From the NCBI GenBank assembly GCA_022843265.1, contig JALHNZ010000014.1, positions 1-63,708 on the forward strand: 63,708 bases of DNA, in the 5' to 3' direction. The stretch comes from Gemmatimonadaceae bacterium. Its GTDB lineage: Bacteria > Gemmatimonadota > Gemmatimonadetes > Gemmatimonadales > Gemmatimonadaceae. Positions 28,181 through 41,306 of this stretch are shown in pieces (positions within the stretch are counted from its first letter, which is position 1; each line of letters begins with the position of its first letter). The notes beneath the pieces were generated by a model. The model was not told where the DNA came from, searched no databases, and worked only from the letters and a program-made list of their open reading frames with translations. The position numbers and the translations under genes were made by a program.

Positions 28181-29938
28181 ATGCACCGATTCAAAACCGG
28201 TCGATCACCGATCGGCGCGATGGTCGCCGTCGCCGCGTTCGTCGGCGCGACGGCGCCCGGCACTGCGCTGGCGCAGCGACCCGCCAACGCGCCATCGACA
28301 GGATATCTGTCGCACGGCGCGCTCACCTCCGCGATTGACGAAGTGCGTCGCGCCAATCCGTCGCTGGTGACGGTTCGTGAAATCGCGAAATCACCTGGTG
28401 GACGCGCCGTACACGTGGTGCGCATTGGAAGCGGCGGCGATGCCGCCGACAAGCGCCCCGCCGTGCTCGTGGTCGCCAATGCGTTCGGACCGCACGTGGT
28501 ATCGAGCGAAGTCGCGCTGCGCATCGTGCGTCAGATGGCGAGTAGCTACTCGCGCGATACCGCCATGAAGCGGTTACTCGACCAGCACACGTTTTACGTG
28601 GTGCCGCGCGCAAATCCCGACGCGGCGGAAGCTTTCTTTGGTCCGGTGCTCTCTGAGCGCACCGGCAATGACGAACCGTTCGACAGCGATCGTGATGGCA
28701 AAGTTGATGAAGATGGGCCGAGCGATGTGAATGGTGACGGTCGCATCACCAGCATGCGCATTGAAGATCCGGCCGGACAGTGGATCGCTGATTCGCTGAA
28801 TCCGATGCTCATGCGCCGCGCTGATGCGACGCGTGGCGAGCGTGGGCGCTATCGCGTGATGGTCGAAGGTCGTGATCTCGACAAGGACGGCGCCTTCAGC
28901 GAAGACGGTCCGGGCGGTACCGACATCAACGCAAACTTCCCGAACTTCTACGAATACTTTGGCGCCACGTCAGGCAACTGGCCACTTTCGGCGCCCGAAG
29001 CGTGGGGCATCGCGGAGCTTTTTCAGACGCACCAGAATATCGCCGTAGCGTACGTGCTCGGCCCGCAGGACAATGTGAACTCGCCGTGGGTCGGCCGTCG
29101 TGTACCGGGTATTGGCGGACAGCCGCAGGGCACGTCCGCGTCGGGTCCGTTTACTGCAACTCTGCCGGAAGATGATCCGTGGTTTGCTGAGGGCAGCCGT
29201 GTATTCAAGCGCACCACAGGACTGTCACGCGGTCCGTCCGGAGTAGAAGGCAAGGGCGATGTGCTCTCGTGGATTTATTACCACATGGGACGACTCGCGT
29301 TTGGTTCTCGCACCTGGTGGACACCAGACATGCCAGCCGATACCACGCGTCGTGCCGGCGCGCCGGCGGCCGGTGGCAATGATGCGTTGTCGGCCGAGCG
29401 CGCAACGCTTCGCTGGATGGAAGCGAACCGCGCGGATGCCGTGGTCCCGTGGACCCGTGTGCAGCACCCCGATTTTCCTGGACAGACTGTGGAAGTGGGT
29501 GGCATTGCACCGTATGCAGCGCTGAATCCTCCGGCGTCGATGCTTGATTCACTCGGCGCGCAACACGCGCGATTTGTTGGCGCACTGGCGGGCATGCTGC
29601 CGCGACTGGAGCTGCGTGTGGCCAAAGTTGAAGCCGTTGGTACGCGCACGTGGCGCATCACGGCACATGTCGCGAACACGGGTTTCTTGCCCACGATGTC
29701 GGCAATGGGTGCGCGTGCACGCTGGCCACAGCGTGTACGTGTTGACCTCAAGACATCGCGCGGTCAGGAAATCGCTTCTGGACGCACCATGCAGCTGCTC
29801 AATCCGCTGCGCGGTAGTGGCACCAGCACAGAGCTCACCTGGGTGATTGTTGGTGACGCTGGCTCTTCCGTGACGCTCTCCGCCGCCTCGGCAATCGTTG
29901 GCGAAGCGAGCGAAACGATCACGCTCCGCGCACGGTGA
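28181..29938 (+). CDS. Exported M14-type carboxypeptidase homologue lacking zinc and catalytic residues
   Basis: Signal peptide (AMVAVAAFVGATAPGTALAQ), then an M14 peptidase-like domain clearly paralogous to the next gene: same order of blocks, including RANPDA and two DxDxDG loops. The zinc motif HxxE of the paralogue (NIHSNE) is replaced by NAFGPH, the third zinc His by Gly (AYVLGP versus AQSYHN), the substrate-binding Arg in NRNW by Ala (NANF), and the catalytic Glu by Thr. It is therefore probably a pseudo-enzyme with a binding, scaffold or regulatory role. The N-terminal ATG at 28181 is the plausible start. The next gene starts at or beside its stop (GTGA overlap), so they are one unit. 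Confidence 0.85.
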   Translation: MHRFKTGRSPIGAMVAVAAFVGATAPGTALAQRPANAPSTGYLSHGALTSAIDEVRRANPSLVTVREIAKSPGGRAVHVVRIGSGGDAADKRPAVLVVANAFGPHVVSSEVALRIVRQMASSYSRDTAMKRLLDQHTFYVVPRANPDAAEAFFGPVLSERTGNDEPFDSDRDGKVDEDGPSDVNGDGRITSMRIEDPAGQWIADSLNPMLMRRADATRGERGRYRVMVEGRDLDKDGAFSEDGPGGTDINANFPNFYEYFGATSGNWPLSAPEAWGIAELFQTHQNIAVAYVLGPQDNVNSPWVGRRVPGIGGQPQGTSASGPFTATLPEDDPWFAEGSRVFKRTTGLSRGPSGVEGKGDVLSWIYYHMGRLAFGSRTWWTPDMPADTTRRAGAPAAGGNDALSAERATLRWMEANRADAVVPWTRVQHPDFPGQTVEVGGIAPYAALNPPASMLDSLGAQHARFVGALAGMLPRLELRVAKVEAVGTRTWRITAHVANTGFLPTMSAMGARARWPQRVRVDLKTSRGQEIASGRTMQLLNPLRGSGTSTELTWVIVGDAGSSVTLSAASAIVGEASETITLRAR

Positions 29939-29943
29939 TTCCC

Positions 29944-31728
29944 ATGACAACCATGACAAACTTGAAAACGCGTTCGTTGTTTGCCGCGCTTGCGTTCGCT
30001 TCGCTTGCTACCGTTGCGACGACCCTTGAGGCGCAACAGCGTCCCGGCGATCGCATTCCGCTGACAGGTGCCCTCGAAGCGCTTGGCTCACCACGCAATC
30101 CCAAGGTTCCCATTCTGTGGGATCGCTGGTACGACAGCGATCAGTTGCGCGAACTCGCCGAGCGTCTGGCGCGTGCGCATCCGGACTATGTGAAGGTGTC
30201 GTCCATTGGCAAGAGTTTTGGCGGTAAAGACATTACGCTGATCACCGTCACGAACTTCAAGGTCGGCGACGCGGACAAGAAGCCCGCGATGTGGATCGAT
30301 GGCAACATTCACTCCAATGAAATTCAGGGCAGTGAGTTTTCCATCTATACCGCGTGGTATCTCGCTGAAATGGCAGGACAGGTTGCGGCCGTGGATACAC
30401 TGCTGGCGCAGCGCACGCTGTACATCGCGCCCACAATCAATCCTGACGCGCGCGATCACTATCTCAAGCAGGCCAACACGGCGAGCTCGCCGCGTACCGG
30501 CCTTATGCCACGCGACAACGACGGCGATGGCTTGATCGACGAAGACGGTCCGAACGATCTCAATGGCGACGGACACATCACGCAGATGCGTCGTCGCAAT
30601 CCGAATGGCCGCTTTATTGAGGCGCCGTATGACAAGCGCATCCTGATTCCCGCGCCCGCCGGTACCAAGGGTGAGTGGGACATTCTCGGGCAGGAAGGCT
30701 ACGATGCAGACGGCGACGGCAGCGTAAGCGAAGATGGTATTGGTGGCTACGATCCAAACCGCAACTGGCCGTGGCGTTGGGTTCCGCAATACGTGCAGGG
30801 CGGTGCGGACTGGTGGCCCGGTTCACTGCCGGAAACGCGCGCGGTTCTGAACTTCGTGATGAAGCGCGACAACATTGCCGGTGCGCAGAGTTATCACAAC
30901 TCGGGCGGCATGTTGCTGCGTGGGCCTGGTGTACCACAGGACGAATATCGTCCGCAGGACGTCGCAGTCTTCGATCAACTCGGCAAAACCGGCGAACAGA
31001 TTCTTCCCGGCTATCGCTACATGATCGTATGGAAGGATCTGTACACGGTGTGGGGTGGCGAACTTGACTGGTTCTACGGCGCGCGCGGAGTACTCACGTT
31101 CTCCAACGAGCTGTTTACACCGTTCCTGTATTTCAATCGCACTGGCAACACCGGTCCGACTGGTCAGGAGGAGAGTTCACTGTTTGACCGCCTGCTGCTG
31201 CTCGGCGAGGCGTTTGTGCCGTGGACCAAGGTGCAGCATCCGCAGTATGGCGAGATCGAAGTAGGCGGCTTCAAGAAGAACTTTGGACGCGTGGAGCCTG
31301 GCTTCCTGCTGCAGAGCGATGCGCATCGCAACATGATGTTCACGCTGTATCAGACGTCTGAGATGCCGTTGGTGGAGGTTGATTCGATCGAAACGCGCTC
31401 CATGGGCGGTGGACTCACGGAAGTCACAGCCATCGTGATCAATCGCAAACTTGCGCCCACGCATACACAGCAGGACGTGGAGAACAAGATCTCGCGTCCT
31501 GATCACGTCACGCTTACCGGCGGCAAGGTGATCACCGCGTTCCGGGTGACGAACCCGCTGCAGAATGTCACCGAGGAGCAGACGCTTGATCCCACCACGA
31601 TCAAGCTCGCGAACATTCCCGGTGGTGGTGTGCCGGTCACGGTGCGCTGGATTGTAGAGGGCAGCGGACCGTTCACGGTGACGGTGGATTCGCCCAAGGG
31701 CGGATCGCATAGCATGCGGTCGCGGTAG
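29944..31728 (+). CDS. Exported M14 zinc carboxypeptidase
   Basis: Signal peptide near residues 1-32 (SLFAALAFASLATVATTLEAQ). Zinc ligands are in NIHSNEIQGSE (H and E, bases about 30310-30321) and SYHNSGG (second His). DPNRNWPW supplies the substrate-carboxylate Arg and FSNELF the catalytic Glu, so it looks active. Between the catalytic strands are calcium-binding-like loops DNDGDGLIDEDG and DADGDGSVSEDG. The C-terminal part is a beta-sandwich domain. It probably removes C-terminal amino acids from peptides outside the cytoplasm. The start is ATG 29944 or GTG 29935; the latter overlaps the upstream stop. A terminator follows at 31748. Confidence 0.93.
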   Translation: MTTMTNLKTRSLFAALAFASLATVATTLEAQQRPGDRIPLTGALEALGSPRNPKVPILWDRWYDSDQLRELAERLARAHPDYVKVSSIGKSFGGKDITLITVTNFKVGDADKKPAMWIDGNIHSNEIQGSEFSIYTAWYLAEMAGQVAAVDTLLAQRTLYIAPTINPDARDHYLKQANTASSPRTGLMPRDNDGDGLIDEDGPNDLNGDGHITQMRRRNPNGRFIEAPYDKRILIPAPAGTKGEWDILGQEGYDADGDGSVSEDGIGGYDPNRNWPWRWVPQYVQGGADWWPGSLPETRAVLNFVMKRDNIAGAQSYHNSGGMLLRGPGVPQDEYRPQDVAVFDQLGKTGEQILPGYRYMIVWKDLYTVWGGELDWFYGARGVLTFSNELFTPFLYFNRTGNTGPTGQEESSLFDRLLLLGEAFVPWTKVQHPQYGEIEVGGFKKNFGRVEPGFLLQSDAHRNMMFTLYQTSEMPLVEVDSIETRSMGGGLTEVTAIVINRKLAPTHTQQDVENKISRPDHVTLTGGKVITAFRVTNPLQNVTEEQTLDPTTIKLANIPGGGVPVTVRWIVEGSGPFTVTVDSPKGGSHSMRSR

Positions 31729-34073: not shown

Positions 34074-34178
34074 TCGGATAAACTCCAGAGGGGATCGCGC
34101 AACGCGCCACGGAAACGCAGCAGCTATAAATTGTACCAGCCGCTCGTGGGAAACGGCAGCCACCGGTAGCTTTCGGTG

Positions 34179-36008
34179 ATGACGACTACCCCCACCCGCC
34201 CGCTTCGATCCGGGCGTGCCCGCTCGCATCGCACGCCGCATCATGTGGGCCGCGCCGTCGCGACTCTGTTCGCGTTGGTGATGGCCCTCGCCATCACAGG
34301 AAATGCCGCAAGGGCACAAGCGACCAACGCCACGCAGCCATCGCTCCCGTTCGAAGACCGCGTCCGCGCCCTGTTTGACGGCGCACGCGCCAAGACAACC
34401 GTGGCGTTTCTCGATCAGTACGTGCGGTGGCCCGGCAATCGCGGGTTCGATGCATCCATTGCGCATATCGCCGAACAGCTGGAGCGCGCCGGATACGTAC
34501 CTCAGGCACGCGCCACGGCATCTGATGCGCTGACCTATCGTGTTGAGCAGTACCCCATGACCCAACCAGCATGGGAACCGATCAACGCGTCCGTCACCAT
34601 TGACGGCGACAATGCGCCGCTGTTGCAGTTCGCCAGCAATCGCAACATGCTTGCCACGAATTCGTTCGCGACGCCGGTGGGCGGCGTGCGAGCCGCGGTC
34701 GTATCTGTAGGCGGAGGTACCCCCGCCGAGTTCGACGCGGCTGGTGATGTACGCGGAAAAGTCGTGTTCGCCAACGCGCCGGTGAGTCGCGTCTTTCAGG
34801 AAGCCGTCGTACGTCGCGGCGCGGCCGGCGCACTAGGATACGCGCTACCTGCGTACCTCAAACCGGAAATCAATCGCCACTCGATTCAGTTTGCGTCGGT
34901 CGCACGCGACACGAGCGTAAACTCGTGGGGCATCGCGCTTTCGTATGCGGCGCGCGAGCGCCTCACGGCCGCGCTCGCGAACGGGCCAGTCTCGGTACAT
35001 GTCGTCACGGATGTTCGGTTCACCACGAACGCCGTCGAACAAACCGTCGTGGCCGAAGTGCGCGGCACATCGCACGCGAACGAACGCTTCGTGTTCAGCG
35101 CGCACGTGCAGGAGCCCGGCGCCAATGACAACGCCAGTGGCGTGGGCGCGCAGCTCGAAATGGCGCGCGTCATGGCGCAGCTGCTGCGTGAGGGCATGCC
35201 GCGCTCGGCGCGCACGCTCACCATGATCTGGGGTCAGGAAATTCGGTCCACCGATCGCTTTATCACTCAGGACTCCGTGCGCGCGCGGGATATTCGCTGG
35301 GGCATGTCACTGGACATGGTGGGTGAAGACACCGACAAAACAGGCGGCACGTTTCTGATTGAAAAAATGCCGGATCCGTCGGCCATCTGGACGCGCGGCA
35401 ACGACAAACACAGCGAGTGGGGCGGACGCCCGCTTGAAAAGAAGGATCTGCGCCCGCACTACTTCAACGACTTCGTCGAAGCCCGCGCCCGTGCGCATGC
35501 GGCCACCACGAACTGGGTCGTGAACACCAATCCGTTTGAAGGAGGAAGCGATCATACGCCGTTTCTCCGCGCCAACAAACCAGGCCTGCTGCTCTGGCAC
35601 TTCACCGATCAGTTTTATCACACCGACGGTGATCGCATTGACAATGTCTCGGCGGCCACGCTGCGCAATGTGGGCGTGACCGCGCTGACCAGCGCGCTGC
35701 CGCTGCTGCGCGGTGATGGGGCGACCATCGATCGCGTGCTGCGCGAAGTTACGAACGCCGCACAGGCACGATTAGCGACTGAAGCACAACTCGCCACGGC
35801 GAACATTCAACGCTCACCAACGAGCGAAACGCGCGCGCGTGAACGTGATATTCTCGAAACGTGGACGAAGTACTACGTGGACGTCCTGTCCACGGTGCGC
35901 GATATCCCGATTGGCACGGCGTCAACGCAACTCGAGGCCGCCATTGCTGCCGCACAGCGGGCGATCGAGGCGGCGGGCGCCCAACACGTGGCCGCTCTCG
36001 CGCGCTAA
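34179..36008 (+). CDS. Exported M28 family zinc aminopeptidase
   Basis: Peptidase of 609 residues. A long N-terminal leader includes the hydrophobic GRAVATLFALVMALAITGNAA and ARAQ. The N-terminal inserted domain carries the VRGKVVFANAP strand. The M28 metal site is seen as FVFSAHVQEPGANDNASGVG (His and bridging Asp), WGQEIRSTD (catalytic Glu), LDMVGED and GSDHTPF (last His). It probably trims N-terminal residues from peptides outside the cytoplasm. The C-terminal region is helical. A GTG three bases upstream is the alternative start. Confidence 0.92.
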   Translation: MTTTPTRPLRSGRARSHRTPHHVGRAVATLFALVMALAITGNAARAQATNATQPSLPFEDRVRALFDGARAKTTVAFLDQYVRWPGNRGFDASIAHIAEQLERAGYVPQARATASDALTYRVEQYPMTQPAWEPINASVTIDGDNAPLLQFASNRNMLATNSFATPVGGVRAAVVSVGGGTPAEFDAAGDVRGKVVFANAPVSRVFQEAVVRRGAAGALGYALPAYLKPEINRHSIQFASVARDTSVNSWGIALSYAARERLTAALANGPVSVHVVTDVRFTTNAVEQTVVAEVRGTSHANERFVFSAHVQEPGANDNASGVGAQLEMARVMAQLLREGMPRSARTLTMIWGQEIRSTDRFITQDSVRARDIRWGMSLDMVGEDTDKTGGTFLIEKMPDPSAIWTRGNDKHSEWGGRPLEKKDLRPHYFNDFVEARARAHAATTNWVVNTNPFEGGSDHTPFLRANKPGLLLWHFTDQFYHTDGDRIDNVSAATLRNVGVTALTSALPLLRGDGATIDRVLREVTNAAQARLATEAQLATANIQRSPTSETRARERDILETWTKYYVDVLSTVRDIPIGTASTQLEAAIAAAQRAIEAAGAQHVAALAR

Positions 36009-36102
36009 CCGGGCCAGACGCCCGGCCTCCTGTCCCCCGCACGTTCCGATCGCAGCGCGCGGCACGTAGTTTTCGCGAGTTCCTTCCCACTCGGAGACTC
36101 GC

Positions 36103-39009
36103 ATGCGCTTCCGTACCCGTTCGGCCGTGGCCGCCATGGCCGTCCTGCTCACCGGGCCGGTTATCACCGGCTCCATGCTCACCGCTCAAACCACTGAGCC
36201 CGCGGCTCCCGCGCGTCCCATGACACTGGCGACCGCGCCCAACAGCAACGGCCCGCGCGCCATGACGCCCCTCGACATTGCGGCGTGGAAATCGATCCGC
36301 ACCACCCAGCTGTCACACGACGGTCAGTGGTTCGCCTATCTGCTGGCGCCGAATGAAGGCGACGGCGAAGTCATTCTCCGTCAGGTCGCCGCGGGCGGCA
36401 AAGAGTGGCGCTATCCGGTGGGAGACGCGGGATCAAATCCGGCGCTTCAGCTCTCACCAGACGGCAAGTGGGCCGCATTCCTCTCGTGGCCCAAAGCCGT
36501 GGACGCGGAGAAAATGCGCAAGGATCGCCGACCGATTCAGGGGAAACTGTCGCTCGTCAACCTCGCGACCGGCCAGAAAAAAGACATCGACAAAGTGCGG
36601 GGCTTCTCGTTCTCCGGGGAGACGCCGCGCTGGATCGCCATGCAGGGATACGGCGCAGATGCTCCGGGCGCCGGCCCCGCCGGTCCACCCGCCGCTGGCG
36701 CCGCCGCCAGCACGCGTCCGTCTGGCAGCGATCTGATTCTGCACGAACTGGGCACCAACGTGATGCTCAATGTTGGCAATGTGGGTGACTACGCGTTCGA
36801 TCACTCCGGTCGCTGGCTCGCCTACTCCATTGATGCCGCGAACAAACTCGGCAACGGTATTCAGCTGCGCGACATGAACGCCGGCACCGTGCGCAGCATT
36901 GATGCCGCCGACCGTGCCACGTATCGCCGCCTCGCCTGGGCCGACACCATGGCCGCATTCACCGTGATGCGCACAACGATCGACTCCGCCGGCAAAGACA
37001 CCACGCTTACCGTAATGGGATTGCGCCGCGTGGGCACACCGCAGGAGAAGCTGGTGTCGATTGCGCAGGCAGGACGCGCCGATTGGCCCGCCGATCAGCG
37101 CATCAGCACCGACCGTGCACCGCGTTGGTCACAGGATCTTGAAGGCCTCTTTTTTGGTGTGCGTCCGGTCGAAAAGGCGGTGCCGAAGGAAGAGCAGCTG
37201 GAAGACGACGATAAGCCCACGCTTCGCCTGTGGCACGAAAAAGACGAGCGCTTGCAGTCGCAGCAGGATGTCCAGGCGACCGCCGATCGCACGTTCTCGT
37301 ATCTCGCCGCGTACTGGCCCGCCACGGATCGTGTCGTGCGTCTCACCGACATGAACGCGCGCACCGGCAATACGATCGACCTTGATCGCTGGGTCATTGC
37401 GTCTGATGTCTCGCCGTATCAGCGTCAGGCCAGTGTAGATGGCATCAACATGCGTGATGTGTACGTGGTTGATCCGCGCACCGGCGACAAGCGGCTTGCA
37501 GTAAAGGCGCTCAAGGGTTCGAGCAGCACGTCACCTGATGGCCGTCGTATGGCATTCTTTGACGACGGTGAGTGGCATGTGATGGAGCTCGCCACGCTCG
37601 CGCGCAAGCCGCTCACCAACGGTGGCCGTTTTATCAATGTGGAAGACGATCACAACGTGGATCGCCCCGGCTATCCGTTGTTCGGTTGGGCGTCCGATGG
37701 CAACGCGTTCCTCGCCAGCGATGGTTGGGATGTGTATCGCGTGAACGTGGCGGGTGGTGAACCCGTGAATCTCACGCGCGATGGCAAGGCCAAGGGCATT
37801 CGCTATGGCCGCCCCATGATCTTTGATCCGCGTCAGCGAGGTGTTGACATGAACGCACCGTTCATGATCACCGCGCGCGAAGAACGCACGAAAAAGGAAG
37901 GCGTGTTGCGCATTGACGCCAAAGCGGGCCGCATCACCGCACTCGACTGGCGCGACGCAAGCGTTCGCCCCATCAAGGCGCGCAAAGCAGACGTGTGGCT
38001 GGCGAGCATCTCCACTGCGGCGCGTTATCCTGACTACTGGAAGATCAACTGGGGCGGCGATTCACTGCGTCTCACCGACGGCGCACCCAACATGAACGGC
38101 CTCAAGTGGAGCCCGGGTTCGCGTCTGGTCACCTACGTCAGCGACAAGGGCGATACGCTGCAGGGCGCGCTGTTCTTGCCGGCGGGATACGAAGAAGGCA
38201 AGAAGTATCCCACGGTCACGTACATCTACGAAAAGATGTCCGACAATCTGCACACGTTCTACAGCCCTACGTTCAGCAGCTCGTACACGCCGAGCATTTA
38301 TACGAGCCGCGGGTACGCGGTGTTCATGCCCGACATCAAGTACACGATCAATGATCCGGGCATGTCGGCCGTGTGGTCGGTCCTGCCTGGTATCAAGGCC
38401 GCGATTGCCACGGGCATTGTGGACTCCGCGAAGGTCGGTCTGCACGGCCACTCGTGGGGCGGATATCAGACCGCGTTTCTCGTTGGTCAGACGGATGTGT
38501 TCACCGCCGGTGTGGCGGGCGCTCCTTTGACAGACATGGTGAGCATGTACAGCTCGGTGTATTGGAACACCGGTTCCGCGAACCAGCCAATCTTCCAGAG
38601 CTCACAGGGTCGTTTCAAAGGCAACTTCATTGAAAATCGTGAAGCGTACGAGCGCAACTCTCCGAACCGCTACGCCGACAAGATCAACACACCGCTCATT
38701 ATTCTGCACAACGATAAAGACGGCGCCGTGGACTACAATCAGGGCATCACGTTCTACAACACACTGCGTCAGCTCGACAAAGATGTGATTCTGCTCGAAT
38801 ATCAAGGCGAGAATCACGGCCTGTCGCAGCTCAAGAATCGCCGTGACTACACGATCCGACTGATGGAGTTCTGGGACCATCACCTCAAGGGGGAGAAGGC
38901 GCCGGAGTGGATCGAGAAGGGTATTCCGCGGCTCGAAATGGATCGCCACTATCGCGAGCGCAAGCCGCTCTACACGCCACCCAAGGTGGTTGCACCAATC
39001 AAGATGTAA
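36103..39009 (+). CDS. Exported S9 prolyl-oligopeptidase-like peptidase
   Basis: 968 residues with a signal peptide (SAVAAMAVLLTGPVITGSMLTAQ). The N-terminal beta-propeller is a run of blades such as LSPDGKWAAFLSW and DHSGRWLAYSID. The C-terminal alpha/beta hydrolase has GHSWGGYQTAF (nucleophile Ser), HNDKDGAVDYNQG (Asp) and GENHGLSQ (His). It cleaves peptides of limited size. A Gly/Pro/Ala-rich insert lies near residues 185-205. GGAG lies about 8 bases before the ATG. It is the first of two S9 genes, 53 bases apart. Confidence 0.93.
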   Translation: MRFRTRSAVAAMAVLLTGPVITGSMLTAQTTEPAAPARPMTLATAPNSNGPRAMTPLDIAAWKSIRTTQLSHDGQWFAYLLAPNEGDGEVILRQVAAGGKEWRYPVGDAGSNPALQLSPDGKWAAFLSWPKAVDAEKMRKDRRPIQGKLSLVNLATGQKKDIDKVRGFSFSGETPRWIAMQGYGADAPGAGPAGPPAAGAAASTRPSGSDLILHELGTNVMLNVGNVGDYAFDHSGRWLAYSIDAANKLGNGIQLRDMNAGTVRSIDAADRATYRRLAWADTMAAFTVMRTTIDSAGKDTTLTVMGLRRVGTPQEKLVSIAQAGRADWPADQRISTDRAPRWSQDLEGLFFGVRPVEKAVPKEEQLEDDDKPTLRLWHEKDERLQSQQDVQATADRTFSYLAAYWPATDRVVRLTDMNARTGNTIDLDRWVIASDVSPYQRQASVDGINMRDVYVVDPRTGDKRLAVKALKGSSSTSPDGRRMAFFDDGEWHVMELATLARKPLTNGGRFINVEDDHNVDRPGYPLFGWASDGNAFLASDGWDVYRVNVAGGEPVNLTRDGKAKGIRYGRPMIFDPRQRGVDMNAPFMITAREERTKKEGVLRIDAKAGRITALDWRDASVRPIKARKADVWLASISTAARYPDYWKINWGGDSLRLTDGAPNMNGLKWSPGSRLVTYVSDKGDTLQGALFLPAGYEEGKKYPTVTYIYEKMSDNLHTFYSPTFSSSYTPSIYTSRGYAVFMPDIKYTINDPGMSAVWSVLPGIKAAIATGIVDSAKVGLHGHSWGGYQTAFLVGQTDVFTAGVAGAPLTDMVSMYSSVYWNTGSANQPIFQSSQGRFKGNFIENREAYERNSPNRYADKINTPLIILHNDKDGAVDYNQGITFYNTLRQLDKDVILLEYQGENHGLSQLKNRRDYTIRLMEFWDHHLKGEKAPEWIEKGIPRLEMDRHYRERKPLYTPPKVVAPIKM

Positions 39010-39062
39010 CGCACGCCCAATCACACGAAGTCTTTCTTTTCGCATTCCGGGAGAGGTCGTTC

Positions 39063-41306
39063 ATGCGCGTCTGTACCGTCGTTCTTGCCGCCGTAGTGGC
39101 GCCGCTGTTCTCCATATCAGCGCAGACGGCACAGCCGCTGCGACCGATGACCTTCCTCGACATGCAACACCTCAAGTCGGCCGGTTCGTTCGCGCCGAGC
39201 ATAGACGGGAAGTGGTTGCTGCACACCGTGACCACGCCCGACTGGGATGAAGCCCGATCGCAGACCGACATCTATCTGGTGTCGGTAGGCCAAGGGGTGT
39301 CGTCGTCCAGGCAAATGACCTTCAGTACGGAAAAGAACGAAACGTCGCCCGCCTGGTCGCGCGACGGTTCGTTCTTTGCGTTTCTTTCCAATCGCGATGC
39401 AACGGGCGAGGCTGCCGGCAATCAGCTGTACGCCATGCGCCCGGATGGCGGCGAAGCGCGCAAGATCACGAGTGCAACCGGCGGCGTGAGCAACTTTGCC
39501 TTCAGCGCAGACGGCAAGTGGCTGGTGTACCGCGCGGGTCGCGCGGCCATGCAACAGCTCTACCGGTTGCCCATCGCCGAGTTGCATACCGCAGAGCCGC
39601 AGAAGCTCACAACGCACGCGGGTGGTGTGGAATCGTGGCAGTGGGCGCCCGACAGCAAGCGCATCTTTTTCACCGGTCCCGATCAGGACGCGGCTGACGA
39701 GCGACTGCGTCGTGAGAAAAAGTTCACAGTGAACATTCAGAACGCGGAAACACCGATCGCGAGTCTGTGGATGTTGGACATTGATCCGGTGCGTGCGACT
39801 CGGCTTACGCGTGACTCGTCGTACACCGTGCAGAGCGTCACGGTCTCGCCCGACAGCCGGTGGGTTGGGTTTACGGGAATCTCCGCGTCGCGCTATGATC
39901 GCAACATCACCGAGCAGAACATCAACGGCGATTTGTATCTGCTCGATGTCGCATCGAACGCCATTGAGCGACTCACGAACAACAAAGAAGTGAGCGAAGG
40001 CGGACTTGGGTTTTCACCCGACAGCCGACAGGTGGTGTTCTCCGCGCCCGACGACATGACGCGCTACACCATGGGCAATCGTCGGCTGTACATCCGCGAT
40101 GTCACCGCGCGCGGGGGTGCGTTCAGGAAACTCGGCGCGTCATTTGACGGAAATGTGGCGGCGGAGTTCTGGTCCGCCGACGGACGCACCGTCTACTTCA
40201 ACGAAGGCATCAAGGCCACACGCCAGCTGCTCGCGCTTGATGTGGCGAACAACACCGTTCGGCAACTCACGAACATGCCCGCGGCGCTGTCGGTAAGCAA
40301 AGACGAAGACTCCGGTCTGCTGCTCATCAATTATTCAGACCCGAAAACACCGTCCACGTTGTACACCGTGAGCTCACTCGACCGGCTCAGTAACCGTGCC
40401 TCCTGGGTGCAACTCTCCGACGTGAACCCGAATGTGCGTACACTCGCCCTCGGTGAAGAACGTGAGATCACCTGGACATCGACGGACGGCAAACAGGTGG
40501 GCGGCGTGCTCAATCTGCCGGTTGGCTATCGCGCCGGTGACCGCGTTCCACTTGTCGTGGCGATTCACGGTGGTCCCGCCGCCGCTGACCTGCTCAGCTT
40601 CAACGGTGGCTACGGTTCTCAGGTGTACGCGGGCGCTGGATACGCCGTGCTCAAGCCAAACTACCGTGGCTCCACCAACTACGGCGAAGCGCATCGTACC
40701 GGTATTGTTGGCAACTACTTCAAGCAGGGCTACGAGGACATTATCAGCGGCGTGGATCATCTCATTGCACAAGGCATTGTGGACTCCACACGTATGGGCA
40801 TGCTCGGCTGGAGTGCTGGTGGGCACTGGTCCAACTGGACGCTTGTGAACACCGACCGCTTTAAGGCCATCAGCTCAGGTGCTGGCACATCGAATTGGGT
40901 GTCCATGTACGCGCAGAGTGATGTCCAGCGTAATCGTCAGTTCTATCTGGGCGACGACCTGCCGTACAACAACTTTGACGCGTACTGGGATCAGTCACCG
41001 ATCAAGTACATCACCAAAGCAAAAACACCCACCATGATTCACGTGGTGGAAGGTGATCCGCGTGTGCCGAGTCCACAGTCGGTCGAGCTGCACATGGCGC
41101 TGAAGAAGCTTGGTGTGCCAACGGAGCTGTTCATGTATCCCGGCAACAGCCACGGTATCCCCGATCCGCGCAATCGGTTGGTGAAGTCGGTGAGTGAACT
41201 TGCGTGGATGGACTATTACGTGCGAGGCAAAGGCAAACAGTTCGATTGGCGTGATGTGCTCAGCACGCTGAAAGACGTGAAGCCCGCGGCGCCAACGGTT
41301 CCCTAG
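39063..41306 (+). CDS. Exported S9 prolyl-oligopeptidase-like peptidase (second copy)
   Basis: 747 residues with a signal peptide (VVLAAVVAPLFSISAQ). Beta-propeller blades (SPAWSRDGSFFAFLSN, FAFSADGKWLVYR, FSPDSRQVVFSAP) are followed by a hydrolase domain with LGWSAGGHWSN (Ser), VEGDPRVP (Asp) and GNSHGIPD (His). It is shorter than and diverged from its upstream neighbour, so specificity probably differs. GGGAGAGG about 6-13 bases upstream supports the ATG at 39063 over a longer frame that overlaps the previous gene. The next gene starts only a few bases after the stop. Confidence 0.93.
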   Translation: MRVCTVVLAAVVAPLFSISAQTAQPLRPMTFLDMQHLKSAGSFAPSIDGKWLLHTVTTPDWDEARSQTDIYLVSVGQGVSSSRQMTFSTEKNETSPAWSRDGSFFAFLSNRDATGEAAGNQLYAMRPDGGEARKITSATGGVSNFAFSADGKWLVYRAGRAAMQQLYRLPIAELHTAEPQKLTTHAGGVESWQWAPDSKRIFFTGPDQDAADERLRREKKFTVNIQNAETPIASLWMLDIDPVRATRLTRDSSYTVQSVTVSPDSRWVGFTGISASRYDRNITEQNINGDLYLLDVASNAIERLTNNKEVSEGGLGFSPDSRQVVFSAPDDMTRYTMGNRRLYIRDVTARGGAFRKLGASFDGNVAAEFWSADGRTVYFNEGIKATRQLLALDVANNTVRQLTNMPAALSVSKDEDSGLLLINYSDPKTPSTLYTVSSLDRLSNRASWVQLSDVNPNVRTLALGEEREITWTSTDGKQVGGVLNLPVGYRAGDRVPLVVAIHGGPAAADLLSFNGGYGSQVYAGAGYAVLKPNYRGSTNYGEAHRTGIVGNYFKQGYEDIISGVDHLIAQGIVDSTRMGMLGWSAGGHWSNWTLVNTDRFKAISSGAGTSNWVSMYAQSDVQRNRQFYLGDDLPYNNFDAYWDQSPIKYITKAKTPTMIHVVEGDPRVPSPQSVELHMALKKLGVPTELFMYPGNSHGIPDPRNRLVKSVSELAWMDYYVRGKGKQFDWRDVLSTLKDVKPAAPTVP

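Follow-up and report, generated by a model that had tools for sequence, protein, structure and literature searches.

Textbooks present M14 carboxypeptidases as single-chain enzymes, and pairs made of an active peptidase and an inactive homolog are known from other folds. In the heterodimeric metalloprotease TldD/TldE, both proteins are needed, the metal is found only in TldD, and the catalytic center is assumed by the authors to have been lost in one copy after a duplication (PMC5810440). The bacterial M16B pairs Sph2681/Sph2682 and Bcn-gP1/gP2 and the mitochondrial processing peptidase are encoded by two genes, one for a zinc-bearing subunit and the other for an inactive subunit that helps to bind the substrate (PMC11266112, PMC8960859). 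Within the M14 family, AEBP1, CPXM1, CPXM2, domain III of carboxypeptidase D, and yeast Ecm14 have the M14 fold with catalytic residues replaced and are selectively kept, with roles that consist in matrix binding or are not known (PMC11266112, PMC7706225); the M14 pseudopeptidases covered in a review of such proteins are eukaryotic (PMC11266112). Pseudoenzyme-enzyme pairs and the M14 pseudopeptidases of animals and yeast are thus established knowledge. To our knowledge, none of the eukaryotic proteins listed here is encoded beside an obligate active partner. A search of the open-licence literature for a bacterial M14 pseudopeptidase, or for a bacterial M14 pair, found no description of either, an absence that is weak evidence.

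The locus described here combines features of these systems. Within a 63,708-nucleotide stretch of a Gemmatimonadaceae contig, which was analyzed as a whole and is called the window below, two neighboring genes encode A, a pseudo-M14 carboxypeptidase, and B, an intact M14 carboxypeptidase (Table 1). We posit, with a probability of roughly 60%, that A serves B as an obligate, non-catalytic partner, probably as one subunit of a heterodimer. The trait that A and B have in common with TldD/E and the M16B pairs is the co-occurrence of a metal-bearing and a metal-less homolog. As in TldD/TldE, the two proteins are homologs of low identity (18% there and 31% here, the latter over the length of A and B in a pairwise alignment), one of which is without any metal ligand, but TldD/TldE has an unrelated fold and works on N termini by way of a closed shell; its complex is proven, whereas physical contact between A and B, and the exact role of A, are what we infer here (PMC5810440). 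The M16B pairs and the mitochondrial processing peptidase likewise differ in fold, an M16 clamshell, and in the known R/Y motif with which their inactive subunit binds substrate (PMC11266112, PMC8960859). Pfam assigns PF00246 and no other family to A and B, so homology to TldD/E or M16 is not indicated. A resembles the eukaryotic M14 pseudopeptidases in fold, in its replaced catalytic residues, and in being selectively kept; those proteins, however, retain some residues of the site (H69 in every one and E72 in most), whereas A has lost all three zinc ligands and the catalytic base (PMC11266112, PMC7706225).

The A reading frame runs from an ATG at 28181 to a TGA at 29936-29938 and encodes 585 amino acids, exactly as given in a preliminary description of this DNA. 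The first possible start of B is a GTG at 29935, and its likely start is the ATG at 29944 or 29953; these ATG codons lie 5-14 nt beyond the stop codon of A, a gap that suggests co-expression of the two genes. The N termini of both proteins are signal peptide-like, and a hydrophobic N-terminal 12-mer is found in 51 of 54 relatives of A. The PF00246 match is confined to residues 49-151 in A (E 3.9e-23) and covers most of the domain in B, residues 73-393 (E 4.6e-34); all 54 A proteins that were scanned match this family, named “Zinc carboxypeptidase” in Pfam. NCBIfam offers no meaningful model for A and none for B. An M28 peptidase gene and two genes of the S9 prolyl oligopeptidase family (Pfam) lie downstream at 34176-41306 of the window, all on the forward strand, making this a peptidase-rich region; these neighbors are not conserved with the pair elsewhere.

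Table 1. Features of the A-B locus, in window coordinates
Feature	Position	Strand	Evidence
Protein A, secreted pseudo-M14 carboxypeptidase, 585 aa	28181..29938	+	ORF; Pfam; AF2; structural alignment
A, signal peptide-like N terminus, residues 1-32	28181..28276	+	Hydrophobic stretch ending ...GTALAQ; low pLDDT
A, NAFGPH replacing the NIHSNE zinc motif	28478..28495	+	Alignment with B; column statistics
A, calcium-type Asp loops 1 and 2 (DSDRDGKVDEDGPSDVNGDGRIT)	28682..28750	+	Alignment; family pattern counts
A, calcium-type Asp loop 3 (EGRDLDKDGAFSEDG)	28865..28909	+	Alignment; family pattern counts
A, DINAN replacing DPNRN (N144/R145 equivalents, substrate carboxylate-binding)	28922..28936	+	Alignment
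A, LGPQDN replacing YHNSGG, third zinc His to Gly, followed by Asn298	29057..29074	+	Alignment
A, FGSRTWW replacing FSNELFT, catalytic Glu to Arg; A-specific Trp379	29300..29320	+	Alignment
A, C-terminal beta-rich domain, common to A and B	29606..29935	+	AF2 secondary structure
Protein B, secreted intact M14 carboxypeptidase	29935..31728	+	ORF; PF00246; AF2; structural alignment
B, NIHSNE with zinc ligands His126 and Glu129, intact	30307..30324	+	Alignment; 106/106 B proteins
B, third zinc ligand His321, intact	30895..30897	+	106/106 B proteins
B, catalytic Glu392, intact	31108..31110	+	104 E, 2 gaps in truncated ORFs

Solved structures were found for neither the A nor the B family. AF2 models and structural alignments indicate that the funnelin fold of A is intact around its inactive site. 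The A model (pLDDT 89.8, pTM 0.89) aligns with carboxypeptidase T (3prt) over 294 residues (Z 31.3, rmsd 2.9; VIA-align), and the B model (pLDDT 88.7, pTM 0.88) aligns with human procarboxypeptidase A4 (2boa) over 290 residues (Z 37.7, rmsd 2.2). Its PF00246 match together with the Z of 31.3 to carboxypeptidase T places A in the M14 fold family. Carboxypeptidase T and the A/B funnelins (3prt, 1obr, and 2bo9) have the same fold as A (Z 31) and B (Z 37), and B is like them also in its full active site and in having Tyr at position 248. The solved funnelins align over about 300 residues, to which A and B add calcium-type loops and the C-terminal beta-rich domain. The preliminary description had regarded the calcium-type loops as kept in A, and across the family they are: patterns 1, 2, and 3 are found in 87, 91, and 86 of 104 A proteins, respectively, and the loops are retained in most B proteins also.

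Pairwise alignment of A with B reproduces the losses that had been proposed from inspection of the sequence. The NIHSNE motif of B corresponds to N100-A-F-G-P-H105 in A, with the zinc His replaced by F102 and the zinc Glu by H105; SYHNSGG is aligned to VLGPQDN, which puts G294 in place of the third zinc His; and FSNE is aligned to FGSR, which puts R377 in place of the general-base Glu. The equivalent of R127 in A is uncertain, as the alignment shifts there by one residue. These replacements are not peculiar to the window. Homologs of A were taken from Gemmatimonadota and from named records of other phyla (Bacteroidota, Planctomycetota, Verrucomicrobiota, Ignavibacteriales, Calditrichota, KSB1, and others, with the phylum labels of metagenome bins as deposited). 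Homologs with an intact HxxE, the counterexample named in the preliminary description, were looked for, and 0 of 104 have one, which far exceeds what chance would produce; the third zinc His is present in 0 of 104 (G 73, S 30, C 1), as is the catalytic Glu, E270 (P 58, R 25, Q 9, and others). A has neither the HxxE with a distal His nor the general-base Glu of a competent M14 enzyme. In B, by count, the zinc ligands H, E, and H and an Arg at the R145 position (R276 in the window) are present in 106 of 106 proteins; with HxxE, the third His, Arg145, and Glu270, B carries the sequence features of a competent M14 zinc carboxypeptidase and is predicted to act as one. A relocated zinc site in A was considered and rejected: the only conserved His, H429, is also conserved in B, and the whole of A contains zero Cys residues. 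What A does conserve is its own. G265 is found in 104 of 104 A proteins, N298 in 103, and W or Y at position 379 in 103, and these A-specific fixed residues point to selection for something other than the chemistry of B.

A third M14 family is encoded in the same genome (L003, contig C49:7573-9024) and in related genomes (L022-L033). It keeps HxxE and the catalytic Glu, but all 13 of its proteins have NSMDT where the third zinc His would lie, and NRN is replaced by HRN; its members are possibly M14 enzymes with Asp as the third ligand.

In the sampled Gemmatimonadota and Bacteroidota, A and B occur together or not at all, almost always with A immediately upstream of B, and the exceptions are apparent ones. 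Both genes are present in 47 of 395 Gemmatimonadota genomes, always on the same strand and in the order A then B; single genes occur in three genomes (G340, G281, and G208), all at contig ends, and in G208 the tail of an A gene lies right at the end of the contig. Among 345 Bacteroidota genomes, A is found in 31 and B in all 31 of these, the two being adjacent by their listed coordinates in 30. Three more Bacteroidota genomes pass the search threshold with B but with no full A match. Directly upstream of B in the first (G520), A is split into two frames by a frameshift; the second retains part of A where its contig begins; and in the third, B lies at the very start of its contig. In the first set of A proteins, B adjoins A in 97 of 104 cases, and the remaining seven are mostly at or near a contig end; on one of the MAG contigs (L059) about 1.5 kb downstream of A is free of B, and the search of that genome, whose completeness is not established, listed A only. 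Adjacency can be lost while co-occurrence persists: in a Planctomycetaceae MAG (G400, L207/L208) and in G596 (L220/L221), the two genes are on different contigs and both present, and such retention is better explained by a functional bond than by linkage alone. Across 74 loci, no conserved third gene family accompanies the pair, other recurrent neighbor clusters being frames that overlap the pair itself or families seen in few loci at scattered offsets, and no natural A-B gene fusion is present among the fetched ORFs.

Variants of the arrangement were seen in Bacteroidota. Some genomes have a trio A-B-B′ with two consecutive B-type genes (L093, L217 of G520, and L218 of G726), and the first B-type gene of G726 aligns a Leu with the third zinc His, which may be a second, ongoing loss or may come from a misalignment of that region. 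G496 (L222) carries a strongly divergent second A-B pair in addition to the first; the four catalytic positions of the A in this second pair (446 bits) are occupied by E, I, G, and D.

The two families also share their history. A phylogeny of 177 proteins places A and B in one clade each (SH-aLRT 100 for both), and the inner order of the two subtrees is parallel, with the Gemmatimonadota pairs falling into two separate groups in both. Tree distances within A and within B are correlated over 93 pairs (Mantel r 0.943; largest of 999 permutations, 0.08), and 49 of 51 strongly supported splits of the A tree recur in the B tree, with 1 in conflict. Monophyly and matching trees indicate a single duplication followed by joint inheritance, which extends to placements, common to both families, that depart from phylum boundaries. 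Among close pairs (dS <1; Nei-Gojobori), dN/dS is 0.05-0.27 for A and 0.01-0.13 for B. A is under purifying selection, and its evolution is about 1.5 times faster than that of B in the trees and about 2 times faster in closely related pairs. The preliminary description had proposed a conserved pseudopeptidase partnering an active peptidase, and this is strongly supported by the universal loss of the active site, the strict co-occurrence and gene order in two phyla, the trees, and the purifying selection; A is very probably a non-catalytic partner of B rather than a decaying gene.

We envision that one ancient duplication of a gene for a secreted M14 carboxypeptidase gave rise to A and B, with B remaining a zinc enzyme and A losing zinc and catalysis and becoming a dedicated, obligate partner. 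A would then be the non-catalytic subunit of a periplasmic or extracellular A-B complex in which B would cut C-terminal residues. The remodeled pocket and surface of A could (i) hold, position, or gate the substrate or (ii) stabilize B. Some considerations count against a subunit role. A evolves faster than B and is thus less constrained than a tight, whole-surface interface would make it. Furthermore, M14 enzymes are generally active as monomers, so B may need no subunit. The A gene on the L059 contig, with no B match in its genome, also belongs on this side. Co-occurrence and co-divergence would likewise be expected of linked genes acting in a single pathway even if their products never touched.

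A could instead be a free protein that binds peptides or their C termini and hands substrate over to B, or competes with B for it, within the same pathway and in no stable complex. We consider this unlikely, although the residues that would hold a peptide C terminus are partly kept: the carboxylate-binding N144 is retained in 89 of 104 A proteins, R or K is present at position 145 in 88, and both are found together in 77. New conserved residues in the pocket of A and the two genomes with unlinked genes are also consistent with free binding. The claim of the preliminary description that A has lost the substrate Arg divides in two: it holds for the A protein of the window, which keeps the N144 equivalent and has A251 at the R145 position (PNRNW aligned to INANF), but not for the family as a whole, in which this loss is limited to a few lineages. 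Without R145, the lineage of the window is itself a poor fit to a free binder of C termini; across A, moreover, the Tyr248 equivalent is absent and the loop that bears it is mostly deleted, and a one-to-one gene order that is almost strict speaks for the two proteins being made in coupled quantities.

A role for A as a dedicated inhibitor, folding chaperone, or keeper of the pro-form of B, protecting the cell until export or maturation, appears improbable to us. Such a role would suit a protein that is made immediately before B, that has the fold of B and could form a dimer like that of B with itself, and that, like B, has a signal peptide-like N terminus. However, a 585-residue homolog with conserved calcium loops and pocket residues would be an expensive inhibitor, and the inhibitors and pro-domains of M14 enzymes known so far are small folds unlike A.

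That A is an enzyme with a different chemistry, using a rearranged-metal or metal-free site such as a swapped E-x-x-H with an Asp-Asn motif, is very improbable. A reversed ExxH does occur at the zinc motif in 43 of 104 A proteins, and the near-invariant N298 is preceded by D in 64 and N in 38. The swapped ligands are variable, however: the first position is occupied by F, Y, S, or W in the window's lineage, the second can also be Q, D, R, I, or others, and no trio of side chains capable of binding a metal at the site is common to all A proteins. A new metal site built from the reversed ExxH was rejected for this lack of conservation across the family. Finally, A as a decaying duplicate hitch-hiking beside B, a reading to which its faster evolution and the one frameshifted A gene (G520) lend some color and which the preliminary description had already turned down, is contradicted by full-length open frames spread over several phyla, dN/dS well below 1, the confidently predicted fold, the A-specific fixed residues, and the retention of A even where it is unlinked from B, and has next to no probability.

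The pair may exemplify an undescribed and widespread class of two-subunit, secreted bacterial M14 carboxypeptidases in which an inactive paralog is the essential subunit that gives substrate choice, a proposal to which we assign even odds. Many database entries labeled “zinc carboxypeptidase” would then be this non-enzyme. Pfam-based annotation calls for caution in any event, as A proteins are called zinc carboxypeptidases though the zinc ligands are absent. The bacterial pseudo-M14 protein spans several phyla, is old enough for its tree to mirror the tree of its active sister protein, and is strictly tied to that sister; the presence of the pair in culturable Algoriphagus, Roseivirga, Siphonobacter, and Parapedobacter makes the role that a dead peptidase plays for a live one open to experiment.
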